Source of the DNA: Thermodesulfobacteriota bacterium
GTDB lineage: Bacteria > Desulfobacterota > DSM-4660 > Desulfatiglandales > Desulfatiglandaceae
Reading direction: 5' to 3'
Length of the DNA: 5,228 nucleotides
Assembly (NCBI GenBank): GCA_028278625.1
Contig: JANQDY010000096.1
Location: forward strand, 1-5,228
Made by a program: the position numbers and the translations under genes. Positions 1-5,228 of the stretch are shown here, piece after piece (position 1 is the first letter of the stretch; each line of letters starts with the position of its first letter). The notes beneath the pieces were generated by a model. The model saw only the letters and a list, made by a program, of their open reading frames with translations, was not told where the DNA came from and ran no database searches.

Positions 1-279
1 CTCAACCGCGGTTTCAAACAGCTTTACGGGCAAACCGCATTCGATCTCCTACGCAACGCCAGGCTCAAAAAAGGCCTGACACTTCTTCAACAGACCGACT
101 TGAGCCTGTCCGAGGTGGCGCTTTCGGTTGGATACAACAATCAAGCCAATTTCACCAAAGCCTTTCGCGCCCATTTCGGACAGACCCCTAACACCGCTCG
201 CCGACAGGGAATGGGGGCCGACATGGCTCTGGGGAAAATTGAACCGAGACCTTGCCGTTCTTTCTGTTCAAATGGGTAG
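1..279 (+). CDS. AraC-family transcriptional regulator, C-terminal part (5' end outside window)
   Basis: The reading frame is open from base 1 and ends at TAG 277-279, leaving 92 C-terminal residues. The visible part spans most of an AraC/XylS DNA-binding domain. It starts in the recognition helix of the first helix-turn-helix (LNRGFKQLYG, residues 1-10), continues through the linker helix (about 14-31), and includes the second helix-turn-helix (about 35-60, with LSEVALSVGY and FTKAFRAHFGQTP). The pattern LNRGFKQLYGQTAFDLLR resembles the siderophore-responsive PchR/YbtA/RhrA branch, which binds a ferri-siderophore through its missing N-terminal domain and activates receptor and permease genes. 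That subfamily placement is by resemblance only. About 24 residues after the domain look like an unstructured tail. Its position upstream of, and co-directional with, a permease-receptor pair fits a local activator. The effector cannot be judged because the sensor domain is outside the window. Confidence 0.9.
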   Translation, partial: LNRGFKQLYGQTAFDLLRNARLKKGLTLLQQTDLSLSEVALSVGYNNQANFTKAFRAHFGQTPNTARRQGMGADMALGKIEPRPCRSFCSNG

Positions 280-322
280 CGTCTCTCGTTGCGCCTATCG
301 TGTTCGGACCCTCCTATCGGTA

Positions 323-349
323 ATGCATTTCAAATAAAACAAAGTGCAT
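323..349. repeat. AT-rich inverted repeat between regulator gene and riboswitch
   Basis: Arms at 323-330 (ATGCATTT) and 342-349 (AAGTGCAT) pair over 8 positions with one G-T wobble around an A-rich 11-base loop. The element lies after the regulator stop codon and before the riboswitch aptamer, where an operator for the transcription start of the leader would be expected. There is no following T-tract, so it is not a convincing terminator. I could not find a sigma-70 promoter with good -35 and -10 hexamers in 280-400, and the sequence does not match a Fur box well. A protein-binding role is only a guess from position and symmetry. Confidence 0.3.
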
Positions 350-400
350 CGCGGAAAAGACAATCCTTTCATCCTTTTGCTAAACAACCCCCATTGGACA

Positions 401-562
401 TGCAGTTGCGCCCCTTTCGGGGTGTTAAGGGAAGACGGTGAAAATCCGTCGCGGACCCGCCGCTGTAACCGGGGACAAACGCCGTAACCATGCCACTGCC
501 CGAAAAGGCGGGAAGGCGCGGCCACTAGGAAGATCCGGAAGCCAGAAGACCTGACTGCAACA
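401..562 (+). ncRNA. Cobalamin (B12) riboswitch aptamer
   Basis: The region carries the ordered conserved blocks of the cobalamin riboswitch family. There is a C4/G4 hairpin at 411-422, then TTAAGGGAA at 425-433. GACGGTGAAAATCCGTC follows at 434-450, with GACGG/CCGTC as a stem, then GCGGACCCGCCGCTGTAACC at 451-470. GCCACTG lies at 492-498, CGGGAAGG at 509-516, and the B12 box GAAGCCAGAAGACCTG at 538-553. The closing stem can form from GTTGC 405-409 and GCAAC 557-561, with a competing register GCAGT 402-406 and ACTGC 554-558. The family binds coenzyme B12 or related corrinoids and normally turns genes off when ligand is present. The long GCCACTG-to-B12-box arm suggests the adenosylcobalamin-preferring class, which is an inference. 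It precedes a terminator and the permease-receptor genes on the same strand, so those genes are the likely targets. The exact ends are approximate. Confidence 0.93.
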
Positions 563-629
563 AGAAGTCATCGCCCCATTCTCCCGTGGATTGGTGAGGG
601 CCGCGATCTCAAAAGAGGGTTATAAACGG

Positions 630-668
630 AATCCCCGACTCGAATTGTCAGAGCCGGGGATTTTTTTT
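630..668 (+). terminator. Intrinsic terminator of the B12 leader
   Basis: The arms AATCCCCGACTC (630-641) and GAGCCGGGGATT (651-662) pair over 12 positions with a single A-C mismatch, around a 9-base loop. A run of eight T residues (661-668) completes the canonical shape. It lies about 70 bases after the B12 box and before the permease gene, so it is the probable switching element: termination with corrinoid bound, readthrough without it. Confidence 0.9.
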
Positions 669-680
669 GTGAGGGCTTTC

Positions 681-734
681 TATCGGTCGGATCCCGCACC
701 CTGAAGACGGTATGGGGAACCGAGGATCCGGATA
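681..734 (+). repeat. Leader hairpin after the terminator
   Basis: CGGATCC (688-694) and GGATCCG (724-730) are a perfect 7-base inverted repeat. The stem can be extended by TATC (681-684) with GATA (731-734) across a 3-base bulge, and CCC 699-701 can pair with GGG 714-716 inside. It lies between the terminator and the ribosome-binding site and lacks a T-tract. It could protect or shape the read-through mRNA, or take part in an alternative fold. No function is demonstrated. Confidence 0.5.
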
Positions 735-776
735 TCCCTCGAAAATAGACGGACGTCATAGGAGCTAAGGAGAAAA

Positions 777-2084
777 ATGCCCCCCGACAACAGCGAAAGG
801 TTTCAAAACGGAAGGCGGCGAATCCCATTGAAACTGACCTTGCTGACATCCATGTACATCTGCCAGACCATTCCCGTGGGGTTCATCATCACCTGCCTTC
901 CCGTGATTCTGCGCCACCAGGGAACAAGCCTTCGAACCATCGGTTTCCTTTTCCTGCTCCAGGCGCCCTGGGCCTTGAAATTCCTCTATGCCGCCTGGAT
1001 CGACCGCTTCTACATCAAGAAACTGGGCAGACGAAAAAGCTGGATCTTTCCCCTTCAGTGGGTGGGCGCGGGTCTGTTCTGCGCCCTCTCATGGGTGCCG
1101 CCGGATCGTTCTTTCGGGCTCATGTTCCTCATTTTGTTCTGCTTTAATGCGGTCATGGCAACCAACGACATCGCCGTGGACGGCTATGCCACCGATATGC
1201 TGTTGCCCGAAGAAAGGCCTTGGGGAAATACCATCCAGTCCGGTGCAAGGCCCGTGGGCATGCTTCTGGGCGGGGGGCTGGGACTCGTCCTGGTGGGGTC
1301 CTTGGGATGGCAAGCCGTCTGCATGCTTCTGGCCGGGACGATTCTGGTCCTGAGCCTGCCGGTGGTGTTGCATCGGGAGATGGCGCCCATTTACGAAAAC
1401 GGGAATGCGCAACCTGGAAACAATGGGCAAAAATTCGGTCTCCGGGCTTTTTTAAAACGGCCCGAAACCCTTTGGCATATTCTTTTTCTGCTATCGCCCA
1501 CCCTCTTTTTTTTCAGCGGTTTCCAGATGCGGATGCCGCTTTTGACCGACCTGGGAATGAACCCGGCCGCCATGGGAAAGGCCCTCATCCGGTTCGGGTA
1601 CCCCGCCGCATTTCTAGGGACCCTCTTCTGGGGATGGTTCTATGGCAGGGTGGGTCCCAAGGTCTTTCTTCGAACCTTCGGCCTTCTATCCCTGGCACTC
1701 ACCGGCTTTACCGTTTACGTGGCCCGTGCGGGGGTGATTTCGCCATTTCAGAGCGCCCTGATTCTGTCCGCCGACAACGTCATTCTGGGAGGAATATTCG
1801 TTTGGGGGTTCACGCTCATGATGAAGGCCAGTGCCGGACTGTACTCCGGAACCGGATTTGCCGTCTTGAGCAGTGTTTTCATATTGCCGCCCCTCCTCTT
1901 GGGCCCCCTGTTCGGGGCCCTGGGCGATGGTTGGGGGACGCTTGCGCTCTATGGGTGCATCGGCGCCCTGATGATGCTGGGGCTCTTGGGCGCAGAGTTG
2001 ATAATGCACTATCGATTGAAGGATTTCGTTGACAAAACCGATAGGGCCTCACCGAAGGCGAAAACGGTCCTCTCGTCGTTATAA
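777..2084 (+). CDS. MFS permease, AmpG/RhtX-FptX (siderophore importer)-like
   Basis: The product is a 435-residue inner-membrane transporter with about twelve hydrophobic helices, near residues 19-43, 52-72, 89-106, 111-132, 158-176, 179-198, 232-250, 270-288, 296-316, 324-345, 356-380 and 386-410. The signature loop after helix 2 is present (D77-R78 and GRRKSW 84-89). NDIAVDGYATD (130-140) after helix 4 is typical of the AmpG/acetyl-CoA-transporter-like branch. LPVILRHQG (41-49) and PWALKFL (64-70) resemble RhtX and FptX, single-polypeptide permeases that carry rhizobactin or pyochelin across the inner membrane. ATG 777 is supported by TAAGGAG at 766-772. It is the first gene after the B12 riboswitch and terminator, and a TonB-dependent receptor starts 42 bases downstream, so joint transcription is likely. 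Import of an iron chelate is the family expectation; the riboswitch suggests a corrinoid or cobalt complex instead. A muropeptide permease (AmpG itself) is less likely given the receptor neighbour. Parts of the gene are much richer in G+C (41 of 60 at 1261-1320) than sampled receptor segments. Confidence 0.85.
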   Translation: MPPDNSERFQNGRRRIPLKLTLLTSMYICQTIPVGFIITCLPVILRHQGTSLRTIGFLFLLQAPWALKFLYAAWIDRFYIKKLGRRKSWIFPLQWVGAGLFCALSWVPPDRSFGLMFLILFCFNAVMATNDIAVDGYATDMLLPEERPWGNTIQSGARPVGMLLGGGLGLVLVGSLGWQAVCMLLAGTILVLSLPVVLHREMAPIYENGNAQPGNNGQKFGLRAFLKRPETLWHILFLLSPTLFFFSGFQMRMPLLTDLGMNPAAMGKALIRFGYPAAFLGTLFWGWFYGRVGPKVFLRTFGLLSLALTGFTVYVARAGVISPFQSALILSADNVILGGIFVWGFTLMMKASAGLYSGTGFAVLSSVFILPPLLLGPLFGALGDGWGTLALYGCIGALMMLGLLGAELIMHYRLKDFVDKTDRASPKAKTVLSSL

Positions 2085-2126
2085 AACTGTTTTCGGGATA
2101 AAAAAAAGTAAAGGGAGAGAAGATCA

Positions 2127-4217
2127 ATGAAAAAGCACTTTTGTAAAGCAGTTGCTCTGTTGGCGATCGCGATGTTGACGGATTCCACGGCATACGGCGA
2201 ATCCGTTGAAGACCATGAAATACAGGACATCATGCAGTTGGGGAGTATGACGGTCACGGCCCAGAAAAAGGAAGAAAACGTTCAGAAGGTCCCCATCAGC
2301 ATAGACGTTTTTTCGGAGACGGAGATGGAAGACGCCAGGATTCTGGATACGTCCGATTTGGTGCGGTTTTCGCCCAATGTCTCCATGCTGCAACAGGCTT
2401 TCGAGCATATGGTCGTCATCAGGGGCATCTCATCCTTCAGGGGAAACATCTATTCACCGGCGGGATTCTATGTGGATGACGTGAACTACCCGCTTCATTA
2501 TTGCCAGAACATAGACTTTTTCGATCTTGAGCGGGTGGAAATTCTTAAGGGTCCCCAAGGCACATTGTATGGAAGAAACACCGAAAGCGGGGTCGTCAAC
2601 ATCATTACCCGCCAGCCGGGAAATCAACTTAGGGCCAAGGTACTGGCCGAATACGGAAACTACAATTCCTTCCGATCAATCGCCAATGTCAGCGGACCCG
2701 TTGTGGACGATCGGTTGTATCTGGGAGGGGCGTTTTTTTACCGGTCTTCGGACGGATACATGGAAAACGTATCCAACGGCAATGACCGGGCCGCCGATCT
2801 GAGCCATCTGGCCGGACGCTTCACCTTGAGATGGACCCCGTCGGATTTGTGGGACATATCCCTGATGGCGGACATCATGAATGCCGACGATCACGGGGCC
2901 GAAAGCCGATTCCTGAGCGGCCCCTATAAGACGGATCCCCACAAGGTTAGAAAAGATACGGATGCCTATTTAAAACAGAACTGGAACAGTCAAACGTTGC
3001 GTGTAAAATACGACGGGGACGCCTTCCAGATTCTTTCCGTTTCCGGTCTGTTGTACCAGGATCTCGACAAGGTCAATGACATTGATATGTGGGATAACCC
3101 CAAAAACAAAATGATCAATCCCACCTATATGGAGGTGCGTCAATACAGCCAGGAGTTTCGGATATCCTCGGAAGCGGGGCCCGTTGAATGGCTTGCGGGG
3201 TTGTACGGGTTCATTGAAGAGTCCCACTTCAACTATAAAAACGAAATTATTTCCAAAAATATGATCTATATGAACCCCATTACCGATATCGACTCCAAGG
3301 GCTGCGCCGCTTTCGGCCAGGGGACCTATACCTTTTTCGATAGATTCCACCTGACGGCGGGACTCCGATTGGATCATGAGGAAAAGGAGGGTGAACTCAA
3401 TGATCCCGTTAAAAAGAAGGCCTACAGCAAAGATCTCAGCTTCAACGAGGTCCTGCCGAAATTCTCCTTTTCCTATGATGTCTCAAGGGACGTCATGGCC
3501 TATGCATCGGCATCCAAAGGTTATCTCACGGGCGGGTACAATTGGGGCATGACCGGCACACGTGAAACGTTTTCATATGATCCGGAATACACATGGAATT
3601 ATGAAACGGGCATCAAATCCACCTGGCTGAATAATAAACTGACGGCCAACCTGTCGGTTTTTTATATTTCCATTGACGACAAGCAGGTTTCGGAATTGCA
3701 CCCAACCATGGCAACCGTTACCATCACCAATGCGGCAAAGGCCCATTCCCAGGGCTTTGAGCTGGAATTGCAGGCAAGGCCGTTCATGGGCCTGGATCTC
3801 TCCGCGGGATTCGGTTTCAACGAATCCAAATTCGACCAGTTCATGGCGAACGTATGGAATGACGCGGGCACCGGGTTGACCCAAAAAAATTATGAAGGCA
3901 ACTATCTCCCCTATGCCCCCAAATATACCTACAACATAAGCGCCCAATACCTACACCCGAGTGGGGTTTTCGCCCGGGCCGACCTTTTGGGGAAGGGCCC
4001 TTTTTACGGGGATGCGGCGAACAAGGCCGAACAGAAAGCGTACGAGATCGTGAATCTGCAACTCGGATACGAATGGAAGTGCTTGGATCTGGTCCTCTGG
4101 AGCGAAAATGTTTTCGACCAACAATATTGCACCTTTCTGAGCCCCTATCGGCAGTCCATTGTGGCCGTCGACGGTCCTCCGAGAACCTTCGGCGTCACCT
4201 TGACCTGGCGGTATTGA
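2127..4217 (+). CDS. TonB-dependent outer-membrane receptor (FyuA/CirA-like)
   Basis: This 696-residue protein has a complete TonB-dependent receptor layout and a usual length. A Sec signal peptide (MKK start, hydrophobic 8-17, likely cleavage after about G24) leads to a TonB-box-like strand MTVTA (41-45). The plug domain (about 50-165) shows VVIRGISS (96-103), FYVDDV (114-119) and the hallmark LERVEILKGPQGTLYGRN (134-151) followed by GVVNIITRQP (155-164). The beta-barrel runs from about 170 to the end, with SKGYLTGGYN (463-472) as in FyuA-type siderophore receptors. The C-terminal strand FGVTLTWRY ends in an aromatic residue, as expected for BAM-dependent insertion. It imports a ligand into the periplasm using TonB energy; the ligand is not readable from the sequence. 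GGGAG at 2113-2117, nine bases before ATG 2127, supports the start. The 42-base gap to the permease gene contains no terminator, placing it in the riboswitch-controlled unit. Four cysteines remain in the mature part (C126, C393, C652, C668). C126 lies in the plug segment HYCQN. Confidence 0.95.
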   Translation: MKKHFCKAVALLAIAMLTDSTAYGESVEDHEIQDIMQLGSMTVTAQKKEENVQKVPISIDVFSETEMEDARILDTSDLVRFSPNVSMLQQAFEHMVVIRGISSFRGNIYSPAGFYVDDVNYPLHYCQNIDFFDLERVEILKGPQGTLYGRNTESGVVNIITRQPGNQLRAKVLAEYGNYNSFRSIANVSGPVVDDRLYLGGAFFYRSSDGYMENVSNGNDRAADLSHLAGRFTLRWTPSDLWDISLMADIMNADDHGAESRFLSGPYKTDPHKVRKDTDAYLKQNWNSQTLRVKYDGDAFQILSVSGLLYQDLDKVNDIDMWDNPKNKMINPTYMEVRQYSQEFRISSEAGPVEWLAGLYGFIEESHFNYKNEIISKNMIYMNPITDIDSKGCAAFGQGTYTFFDRFHLTAGLRLDHEEKEGELNDPVKKKAYSKDLSFNEVLPKFSFSYDVSRDVMAYASASKGYLTGGYNWGMTGTRETFSYDPEYTWNYETGIKSTWLNNKLTANLSVFYISIDDKQVSELHPTMATVTITNAAKAHSQGFELELQARPFMGLDLSAGFGFNESKFDQFMANVWNDAGTGLTQKNYEGNYLPYAPKYTYNISAQYLHPSGVFARADLLGKGPFYGDAANKAEQKAYEIVNLQLGYEWKCLDLVLWSENVFDQQYCTFLSPYRQSIVAVDGPPRTFGVTLTWRY

Positions 4218-4265
4218 TTGGGATCATATGAACCCGAATTACGGATCATTCATGTCGCGGTTGCC

Positions 4266-4306
4266 ATATCCGGAAGAGCACATGGAATACTTCCATATGC
4301 GGATAT
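4266..4306. repeat. Nested inverted repeat downstream of the receptor gene
   Basis: Outer arms ATATCCG (4266-4272) and CGGATAT (4300-4306) are perfect complements. Inside them, ATGGAA (4282-4287) and TTCCAT (4291-4296) form a second perfect pair around the 3-base loop TAC. The internal loop is asymmetric (9 and 3 bases). With no T-run immediately after it, it is not a standard terminator. An mRNA-end stabilising hairpin or a protein-binding site are both possible. Confidence 0.5.
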
Positions 4307-4320
4307 TGATTTTATCGTAT

Positions 4321-4349
4321 TTGAAGGTTTGGATTTTTCGGAATATCCT
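4321..4349 (+). promoter_or_regulatory. Possible sigma-70-type promoter for the DUF4405 gene
   Basis: TTGAAG (4321-4326) and TATCCT (4344-4349) each match four of six consensus bases with a 17-base spacer, in the most AT-rich part of the gap. Such matches arise by chance in AT-rich DNA, so this is weak. If real, it would let the downstream gene be transcribed independently of the B12 riboswitch. Confidence 0.25.
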
Positions 4350-4564
4350 ATCTATTTTAAATCTCATCATAAAGCCGATTGGCACGATTTAGGCAAAGAA
4401 TTTCCCGAGAGACAAGCAGGACTGTGTCATTTTCTCTTGCCGAGACCATAGCGCCGAGACGATTCACATGAGCTTATGGATCCTGGGGGGCGTCTTAATC
4501 CAAGCACCCTTTTCAGGGCATATGGTCGGAGGCAGTTCGCAAAGACCCTCACGCGGCCCCATAG

Positions 4565-4571
4565 AAAGGAG
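4565..4571 (+). promoter_or_regulatory. Ribosome-binding site fixing the DUF4405 gene start
   Basis: AAAGGAG lies four bases before ATG 4576. The in-frame upstream ATG at 4468 has no purine-rich site in front of it and would add 36 residues unlike a membrane-protein N-terminus, so 4576 is preferred. Confidence 0.75.
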
Positions 4572-4575
4572 AAGC

Positions 4576-5199
4576 ATGCTAAAGAAAACAACGTCCCTTA
4601 CCCTCACCTTTTCCGGCCTGGTACTGTTGATTACCAGTATCGTCCTTTACATAGGCCCTCCCGGCCATGTGGGCCATTTCTCTCCATGGCGACTTTTGGG
4701 GCTCTCCAAACACTATTGGGGTATCTTGCATCTGAACAGCGGCATCCTCTTCTGCCTGGCCATGATCATCCATGTCTATTTAAATTGGAAACCGCTGATG
4801 TCATATTTGAAGAAGCGGGCCAGGGAGAAGATTCCCTTTCTTCCCCTGATCGCCTCCCTGGCCTTGACGGGATATGTCTGTGTGGGAGCCTGCTATGAGG
4901 TTTCTCCCATGGGGCCGATCATGGATTTTGCACGGAAGCTGAAAATGGCCGCAGTGAGACAATACGGGTCACCACCCTATGGCACATCCATCTCATATCC
5001 CATCGGGACCATTGCCGGTTACATGGGTTGGCATGTGGAAACCGCCCTAAAGCGCCTGGCCGAACACAACATTATAATCGGGTCGCCGGGTGAGTCCCTT
5101 AGGGACGTGGCCCGAAACAACGGCACCAGCATCGGCAGCCTGTTGGATATCATGGCCGGGACCGGGGGCTGTGATTTAACTTTATCTTTAGGAAATTGA
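4576..5199 (+). CDS. DUF4405-like three-helix membrane protein
   Basis: The 207-residue product has three predicted membrane helices (about 9-27, 47-72 and 86-107). A C-terminal soluble segment of about 100 residues follows. The second helix begins HYWGILHLNSG and ends AMIIHVYLNW, with H46, H52 and H66. This pattern is typical of the DUF4405 family, whose histidine-bearing helices recall b-type cytochrome bundles, so heme binding is a plausible but unproven inference. H31 and H34 lie in the first loop. The C-terminal segment (about 137-194) starts PPYG and contains two helical units: IGTIAGYMGWHVETALKRL and SLRDVARNNGTSIGSLLDIM. This resembles the small helical tail seen in related DUF4405 proteins, where successive helices look like repeated helix-turn-helix-type modules. 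Its function is unknown to me. It is co-directional with the uptake genes but separated from them by 358 bases, and it almost touches the next gene (2-base gap). Family assignment is from memory of the motif; confidence is moderate. Confidence 0.6.
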   Translation: MLKKTTSLTLTFSGLVLLITSIVLYIGPPGHVGHFSPWRLLGLSKHYWGILHLNSGILFCLAMIIHVYLNWKPLMSYLKKRAREKIPFLPLIASLALTGYVCVGACYEVSPMGPIMDFARKLKMAAVRQYGSPPYGTSISYPIGTIAGYMGWHVETALKRLAEHNIIIGSPGESLRDVARNNGTSIGSLLDIMAGTGGCDLTLSLGN

Positions 5200-5201
5200 C
5201 C

Positions 5202-5228
5202 ATGAAGAAAATCGGATTGTCTGAAAAA
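5202..5228 (+). CDS. Start of an unidentified gene, truncated by window end
   Basis: ATG 5202 opens a frame encoding MKKIGLSEK before the window ends. AGGA at 5190-5193, eight bases upstream and inside the end of the DUF4405-like gene, is a plausible ribosome-binding site. Only two bases separate it from the preceding stop codon, so the two genes are very likely co-transcribed and translationally close. Nine residues are too few to name a product. Confidence 0.6.

Follow-up and report, generated by a model that had tools for sequence, protein, structure and literature searches.

A cobalamin riboswitch ahead of a siderophore-type permease and receptor pair in a Desulfatiglandaceae bacterium, and its scattered recurrence among related clusters

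In a stretch of DNA from a Thermodesulfobacteriota bacterium (family Desulfatiglandaceae; assembly GCA_028278625.1, contig JANQDY010000096.1, positions 1 to 5,228), a cobalamin riboswitch precedes genes for a major facilitator superfamily (MFS) permease and a TonB-dependent receptor, downstream of the end of an AraC-family regulator gene. The whole stretch analyzed, hereafter the window (5228 bases; G+C content, 52%), is probably the entire contig, and all parts listed here lie on its + strand. We propose that a siderophore-type import module has been put under B12 control and that it most likely imports a cobalt chelate (a metallophore complex) for corrinoid synthesis, a reading to which we assign a probability of roughly 45%. 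A preliminary description had suggested a corrinoid, cobalamin-precursor, or cobalt-chelate importer built from siderophore parts. This suggestion is partly supported: the parts and the recurrence of the riboswitch fit it, with a putative cargo. The main elements are as follows.

1..279, + strand: C-terminal end of an AraC-family regulator (HTH_18; PF12833, 72.2 bits), gene start beyond the contig
323..349, + strand: candidate operator for the AraC regulator, made up of two TGC(A/G) half-sites (spacing, 21 bases) flanking an A-rich stretch, noticed post hoc
387..572, + strand: cobalamin riboswitch aptamer (RF00174, 108.3 bits, E = 2.8e−27, full length)
573..668, + strand: expression platform closed by an intrinsic terminator with its stem at 630-662 and a T run to 668 (from folding)
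777..2084, + strand: MFS permease, 435 amino acids, between the RhtX/FptX and AmpG families (profile searches and tree); AAGGAG at 767-772
2127..4217, + strand: TonB-dependent receptor, 696 amino acids, FyuA-like (PF00593 and PF07715)

Positions 1-189 of the 189 positions of the RF00174 covariance model align to 387-572 of the + strand (cmscan, 108.3 bits versus a gathering score of 31.5), and this is the sole Rfam family match in the window up to an E value of 1. The cobalamin aptamer of the preliminary description is thereby confirmed, its start having been placed 14 bases late, at 401. The intrinsic terminator claimed there was likewise found, as a hairpin at 630-662 followed by a T run to 668, with a stability of −17.4 to −18.5 kcal/mol that varies with the stretch folded; it ends 108 bases before the permease start. 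A general consensus terminator scan of the + strand did not pick up the 630-668 hairpin, probably because its loop length is 9 and the scan accepts 3 to 8; the 5 terminators that it placed in the window did not exceed the 7.1 expected. The fold of the whole leader is no more stable than those of shuffled sequences (z = −0.26). No antiterminator pairing stood out in the leader folds, where the best partner of the terminator's 5′ arm is the aptamer near 470-476. We compared nine riboswitches, using L numbers for loci on contigs of relatives and G numbers for genomes: those of the window, L009 (Desulfonema magnum; two riboswitches), L010, L013, L014, L207, L209, and L206. All nine are followed by a terminator-like hairpin with a T-rich tail (eight strong, −13.1 to −26.3 kcal/mol; L013 weak, −10.3 kcal/mol; search made without a shuffle control). 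From sequence we infer both ligand and direction, with termination triggered by coenzyme B12 (an OFF switch) as the expected mode.

The permease scores above the cut-offs of PF07690 (76.9 bits versus a gathering score of 33.4) and PF13000. It is related to the RhtX/FptX permeases, as had been claimed, but is not a member of that family by the curated cut-off (TIGR02718, 144.3 bits versus 356.15), and it also falls below the cut-off for AmpG (TIGR00901, 132.1 bits versus 350). The receptor begins 42 bases after the permease gene ends, and the closely following TonB-dependent receptor of the preliminary description is borne out by barrel and plug domains that both exceed their gathering scores (PF00593, 166 bits; PF07715, 56.3 bits). 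It narrowly misses the cut-off of the siderophore receptor profile (TIGR01783, 217.1 bits versus 223.5) and stays below that of BtuB (TIGR01779, 34.4 bits versus 599.7). Its nearest solved relative is the yersiniabactin receptor FyuA.

The closest database relatives of the two proteins (75% identical for the permease, 77% for the receptor) lie on one contig of 8,161,625 bases. Searches with the permease gave matches in 3 of 395 genomes of the phylum and 5 of 389 genomes of the class, none of them the genome with that contig; the viral contigs searched held no relative, and all 329 matches in plasmid records were below 60% identity. In the permease tree (a quick method, with several long branches), the window protein groups with four close database relatives, beside the permeases of Desulfovibrio relatives and away from those of L007 and L009-L014. 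The window receptor, by comparison, groups with L011, L012, L189, L007, L009, and L010, and the differing placements suggest a partner swap between permease and receptor. One related permease match (G873:C6:237289-238554) has an in-frame TGA inside its aligned range, and beside some related receptors the MFS permease is replaced by an NMT1/phosphonate-type ATP-binding cassette (ABC) transporter (L190 and L178 by Pfam; L210 by eye).

The AraC-family regulator, absent from the preliminary description, belongs to the gene set, and its domain shares 61-67% identity with the AraC domain whose gene immediately precedes the related permease at L009-L012. The two TGC(A/G) half-sites 21 bases apart are common to the AraC-permease spacers of the window, L010, L011, and L012. 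With a leave-one-out operator score applied to 44 AraC-target spacer rows, the window reaches P = 0.002, L011 P = 0.006, and L012 P = 0.02; among loci outside the motif definition, L009, L014, and L207 reach P = 0.002 to 0.004. At L010, one of the four motif-defining spacers, another site was chosen (P = 0.19). This significance holds only in the scan restricted to AraC-target spacers: when the whole window was scanned with a matrix from L011 and L012, 323-349 scored 12.6, tied with another place and within the range of shuffles (mean, 10.7; maximum, 18.8). We regard 323-349 as a candidate AraC operator. Transcription from a promoter at this site would begin close to the aptamer, in which case regulator and riboswitch would act in series; the position of the putative operator 5′ of the riboswitch suggests a two-input gate.

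For the proposed import of a cobalt chelate, we envisage that the imported chelate would act on the AraC regulator, leading to transcription from a promoter just upstream of position 387, and that the nascent RNA would then fold the cobalamin aptamer. With coenzyme B12 plentiful, the terminator at 630-668 would stop transcription; with B12 scarce, the permease and the receptor would be made. In this scheme, we infer the action of the AraC regulator and the cargo. The main precedent for a cobalt chelate is the uptake of pyochelin-cobalt in Pseudomonas aeruginosa, described in the available text of PMC11481552, and the available text of PMC10878165 reports a cobalamin riboswitch of Anabaena that ties expression to cobalt starvation, with BtuB-type receptors. 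One point weighs against the simple activation step: in a model cited in the same portion of PMC11481552, PchR with pyochelin-cobalt represses. Tentatively, and with the odds rather against it, we extend the proposal to a B12-repressed, chelate-induced cobaltophore uptake, in which a siderophore module would have come under cobalamin control on more than one occasion among sulfate reducers and allied bacteria, Desulfovibrio relatives would have stayed iron-controlled, and the AraC regulator would sense the chelate while the riboswitch senses B12 sufficiency.

To survey related clusters, genome contigs were scanned with an alignment of 24 permeases, and the best 80 of 222 loci were kept. A related permease and a related receptor, adjoining or a few genes apart, occur together in 12 of these 80 loci (L001-L003, L005, and L007-L014; the L005 receptor is cut by the contig end), all twelve from Desulfobacterota by record title. 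Cobalamin riboswitches are present at L009 (twice), L010, L013, and L014; none was found at L001-L008, nor at L007, L011, and L012 even at a lax threshold. At L009, permease and receptor are each preceded by a riboswitch of their own and are separated by FmdE and BadF/DUF2229 genes, and at L010, L013, and L014 the riboswitch lies 5′ of the AraC gene that heads the cluster. Homologous pairs thus do not consistently lack the riboswitch, whose consistent absence the preliminary description would have taken as evidence against itself; it recurs in some related clusters.

Searches for related receptors covered 291 genomes of the order of D. magnum, 21 of the order of Dethiosulfatarculus, and 5 further genomes, and yielded 27, 30, and 36 places, respectively (93 in total, in 23 genomes); the first number should be read as at least 27, because up to three candidates were scored per genome in that search. 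A same-strand riboswitch lies within 3.5 kb upstream of 6 of the 93 receptors (one of them with two), compared to 0.30 expected by random placement (P of about 8e−7, a generous value because the null disregards the preference of riboswitches for transport genes). This final count used 119 riboswitch places; G515, without a listed receptor, was left out, and the L206 riboswitch, whose downstream genes encode an AraC regulator and a FecB/FecCD transporter, was not counted as receptor-linked. Some receptor upstream regions are hidden by contig ends. Copies (L215, L216, L183, and L176) were dropped from trees and scans, and L234, on the same contig as L006 judging by length, was not counted. Dethiosulfatarculus sandiegensis (G002) alone carries twenty related receptors at an E value of 1e−80 or better, two of which are riboswitch-linked.

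Beforehand, we had expected the riboswitch-linked receptors to form one clade. This expectation was rejected: on a tree of 55 receptors, the seven linked ones (window included) need 6 changes, compared to a shuffled-label mean of 6.7, and the scatter of the label implies that riboswitches were repeatedly gained, lost, or both. Where a permease adjoins the receptor, 5 of 15 receptors are linked (window, L010, L013, L014, and L207); L009 is outside these 15 because other genes intervene between its permease and receptor. Given that the riboswitch occurs in a minority of related clusters, and those scattered, riboswitch, permease, and receptor are not a conserved unit, and the conserved order that the preliminary description had looked for did not emerge from the survey. 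The same scattered minority would fit a riboswitch left over from a lost or displaced gene, with the pair no longer under its control. We hold this to be highly improbable, given the intact full-length aptamer, the short distance from terminator to permease start, the two separate riboswitches in D. magnum, and the excess of linked receptors over the random expectation.

If the pair instead imports a true ferric siderophore, its expression would be tied to B12 status in some other way, for example through competition between cobalt and iron. The receptor and the permease do resemble iron-siderophore families. Moreover, according to the available text of PMC545781, AraC regulators homologous to YbtA and PchR occur in siderophore-type transport clusters of Desulfovibrio (FoxR clusters) that are predicted to be Fur-controlled, and a Fur consensus is given there. 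We scanned upstream regions against this consensus, with 200 shuffles per region that preserved single-base composition only. The Desulfovibrio relatives were taken as L001, L002, and L006 together with the order to which the L003 genome belongs, where 16 of the 297 genomes searched have a permease at an E value of 1e−60 or better. None of their 17 distinct permease loci (L001-L003, L006, and L219-L231) has a cobalamin riboswitch. An AraC gene was detected in 13 of the 17, and a Fur-box-like site lies near its called start at P ≤ 0.02 in 11 of the 13; the remaining two (L222 and L226) have a weaker site at a similar place (P of about 0.2). None of the 26 receptor or permease upstream regions of these loci reaches P = 0.05. 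The sites of L227 and L229 are identical and may come from near-copies, the L225 AraC gene is divergent from the receptor, and the L001 site lies 363 bases before the called start (a narrower scan picked a different site, with P = 0.075). In L006, L224, L225, L227, and L229, the called AraC starts are probably too early, because the site falls at or just inside them. By sequence, then, Desulfovibrio relatives appear to keep this kind of module under iron control.

Among clusters with a riboswitch, the Fur-box scan covered the window, L010, L013, L014, L207, L209, and the receptor of L009 (whose permease and AraC gene fell outside it), and the lowest P value was 0.155. The window stretches scanned held no Fur-box-like site above chance, with the AraC start outside the contig and the consensus drawn from other delta-proteobacteria. 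Across 120 regions, including L001-L003, 8 reached P = 0.05, about the chance level; absence of a Fur box at riboswitch loci therefore says little, and its presence at the AraC genes of Desulfovibrio relatives is the informative part. Those sites speak for iron as the cargo, whereas the lack of an above-chance site at the riboswitch-bearing clusters and the repeated association of B12 switches with this receptor family speak against it, and we consider a ferric-siderophore importer improbable.

The main rival to a cobalt-chelate cargo is that the pair imports corrinoids directly (cobamides, cobinamide, or other precursors), with a non-BtuB receptor and an MFS permease replacing BtuB and BtuCDF. 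We judge this possible, if on balance unlikely. In the available text of PMC7689651, most cobamide riboswitches are said to act on genes for cobalt transport or for the metabolism of cobalamin, which suits corrinoid and cobalt import equally. Corrinoid import would be in keeping with G185, where a window-type receptor is the immediate neighbor of a BtuB-like one and the two have separate riboswitches, and with L207, where a CobN-type chelatase (14111-18001; PF02514, 1186 bits) adjoins the riboswitch-AraC-receptor-permease cluster. It sits less well with the low BtuB score of the window receptor, with a permease whose kin are siderophore and muropeptide permeases, and with the apparent iron control in Desulfovibrio relatives; to our knowledge, no MFS importer of corrinoids has been described.

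Other riboswitch-led genes also bear on this question. We scanned ten riboswitch-adjacent proteins, picked from 13 loci, from three module-bearing genomes (G001, G002, and G003). They comprise CbiK (G003), RACo (G001), a DUF3450 and a DUF2162 protein, a ThiC-family protein of G003 above the ThiC cut-off (with BzaB below its own), three incomplete TonB receptors that match BtuB best in NCBIfam, at scores below its cut-off (two in G002, one in G003), and two binding proteins with a Peripla_BP_2 domain, of BtuF/FepB type (G001 and G002). That these genomes have riboswitch-led candidates for corrinoid uptake elsewhere favors a different cargo for the window-type pair, without proving it.

FmdE, a BadF/DUF2229 activase protein (about 1330 residues), S-adenosylmethionine methyltransferases, and a TrmO-like protein recur, one or more each, at permease or receptor loci L002, L004, L007, L009, L011, L012, and L189, as if an imported compound were processed in the cell. 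Tetrapyrrole methylase-like proteins lie near clusters in L009 (1-1311, 3801-4694, and 4882-5769) and L012 (2-688) by Pfam, and in L173 (5930-7576) and L182 (7625-9271) by similarity only, several with signal peptides apparent by eye; L009 also encodes DUF4198 proteins. L206 (856-5448) has a riboswitch followed by an AraC gene and a FecB/FecCD-type ABC transporter, beside a receptor and a methyltransferase. Two further features complete the window; the first of them, like the regulator, had no place in the preliminary description.

4576..5199, + strand: DUF4405 membrane protein (PF14358, 61.7 bits), membership in the unit uncertain
5202..5228, + strand: first nine codons of a further gene, cut by the contig end (reading frame)

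Relatives of the DUF4405 gene lie near related receptors in L205 (14749), L206 (13160), and L211 (7329), directly upstream of one in L206 and L211. By analogy with these two loci, the gene starting at 5202 may encode a second receptor.

The window shares an AraC regulator, a receptor of the FyuA/FptA kind, and an RhtX/FptX-related MFS permease with the uptake of pyochelin (PchR, FptA, FptX) and of yersiniabactin, where YbtA and YbtX, alongside FyuA, are the counterparts of regulator and permease. Those systems are iron-controlled and lie beside synthesis genes; the window genes, in contrast, are led by a cobalamin riboswitch, and the window has no synthesis gene. FptX, in the available text of PMC10846271, carries ferric pyochelin inward across the inner membrane, and PchR controls the genes. 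The FoxR clusters, also from sulfate reducers, likewise pair siderophore-type transport genes with an AraC-type homolog of YbtA and PchR, but they are predicted to be Fur-controlled; our 17 riboswitch-free loci are not equated with those published clusters. A Novosphingobium receptor predicted to take up cobalt also follows an adenosylcobalamin riboswitch and has an inner-membrane partner (PMC7689651, available text), but that partner is a NiCoT permease with CobW, whereas the window has an MFS permease of siderophore type in that role, along with an AraC regulator. Unlike BtuB/BtuFCD systems, the window lacks an ABC transporter gene, and its receptor scores far short of the cut-off for BtuB. 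Our literature search, with subscription journals mostly outside its coverage, yielded no report of an RhtX/FptX-type permease preceded by a cobalamin riboswitch. What we describe is a new combination of known parts, with a suggestive regulatory contrast.

The uptake of cobalt across the outer membrane is poorly known. According to the available text of PMC7689651, a cobalt-specific receptor in the outer membrane has yet to be confirmed, and that of PMC545781 notes several delta-proteobacteria without a homolog of a known cobalt transporter and predicts a new one, CbtX. A B12-controlled receptor and permease of siderophore type would supply a concrete candidate. Because Desulfovibrio relatives carry Fur-box-like sites where some other Desulfobacterota carry riboswitches, these clusters would offer a natural example in which two different signals govern a single kind of import module.
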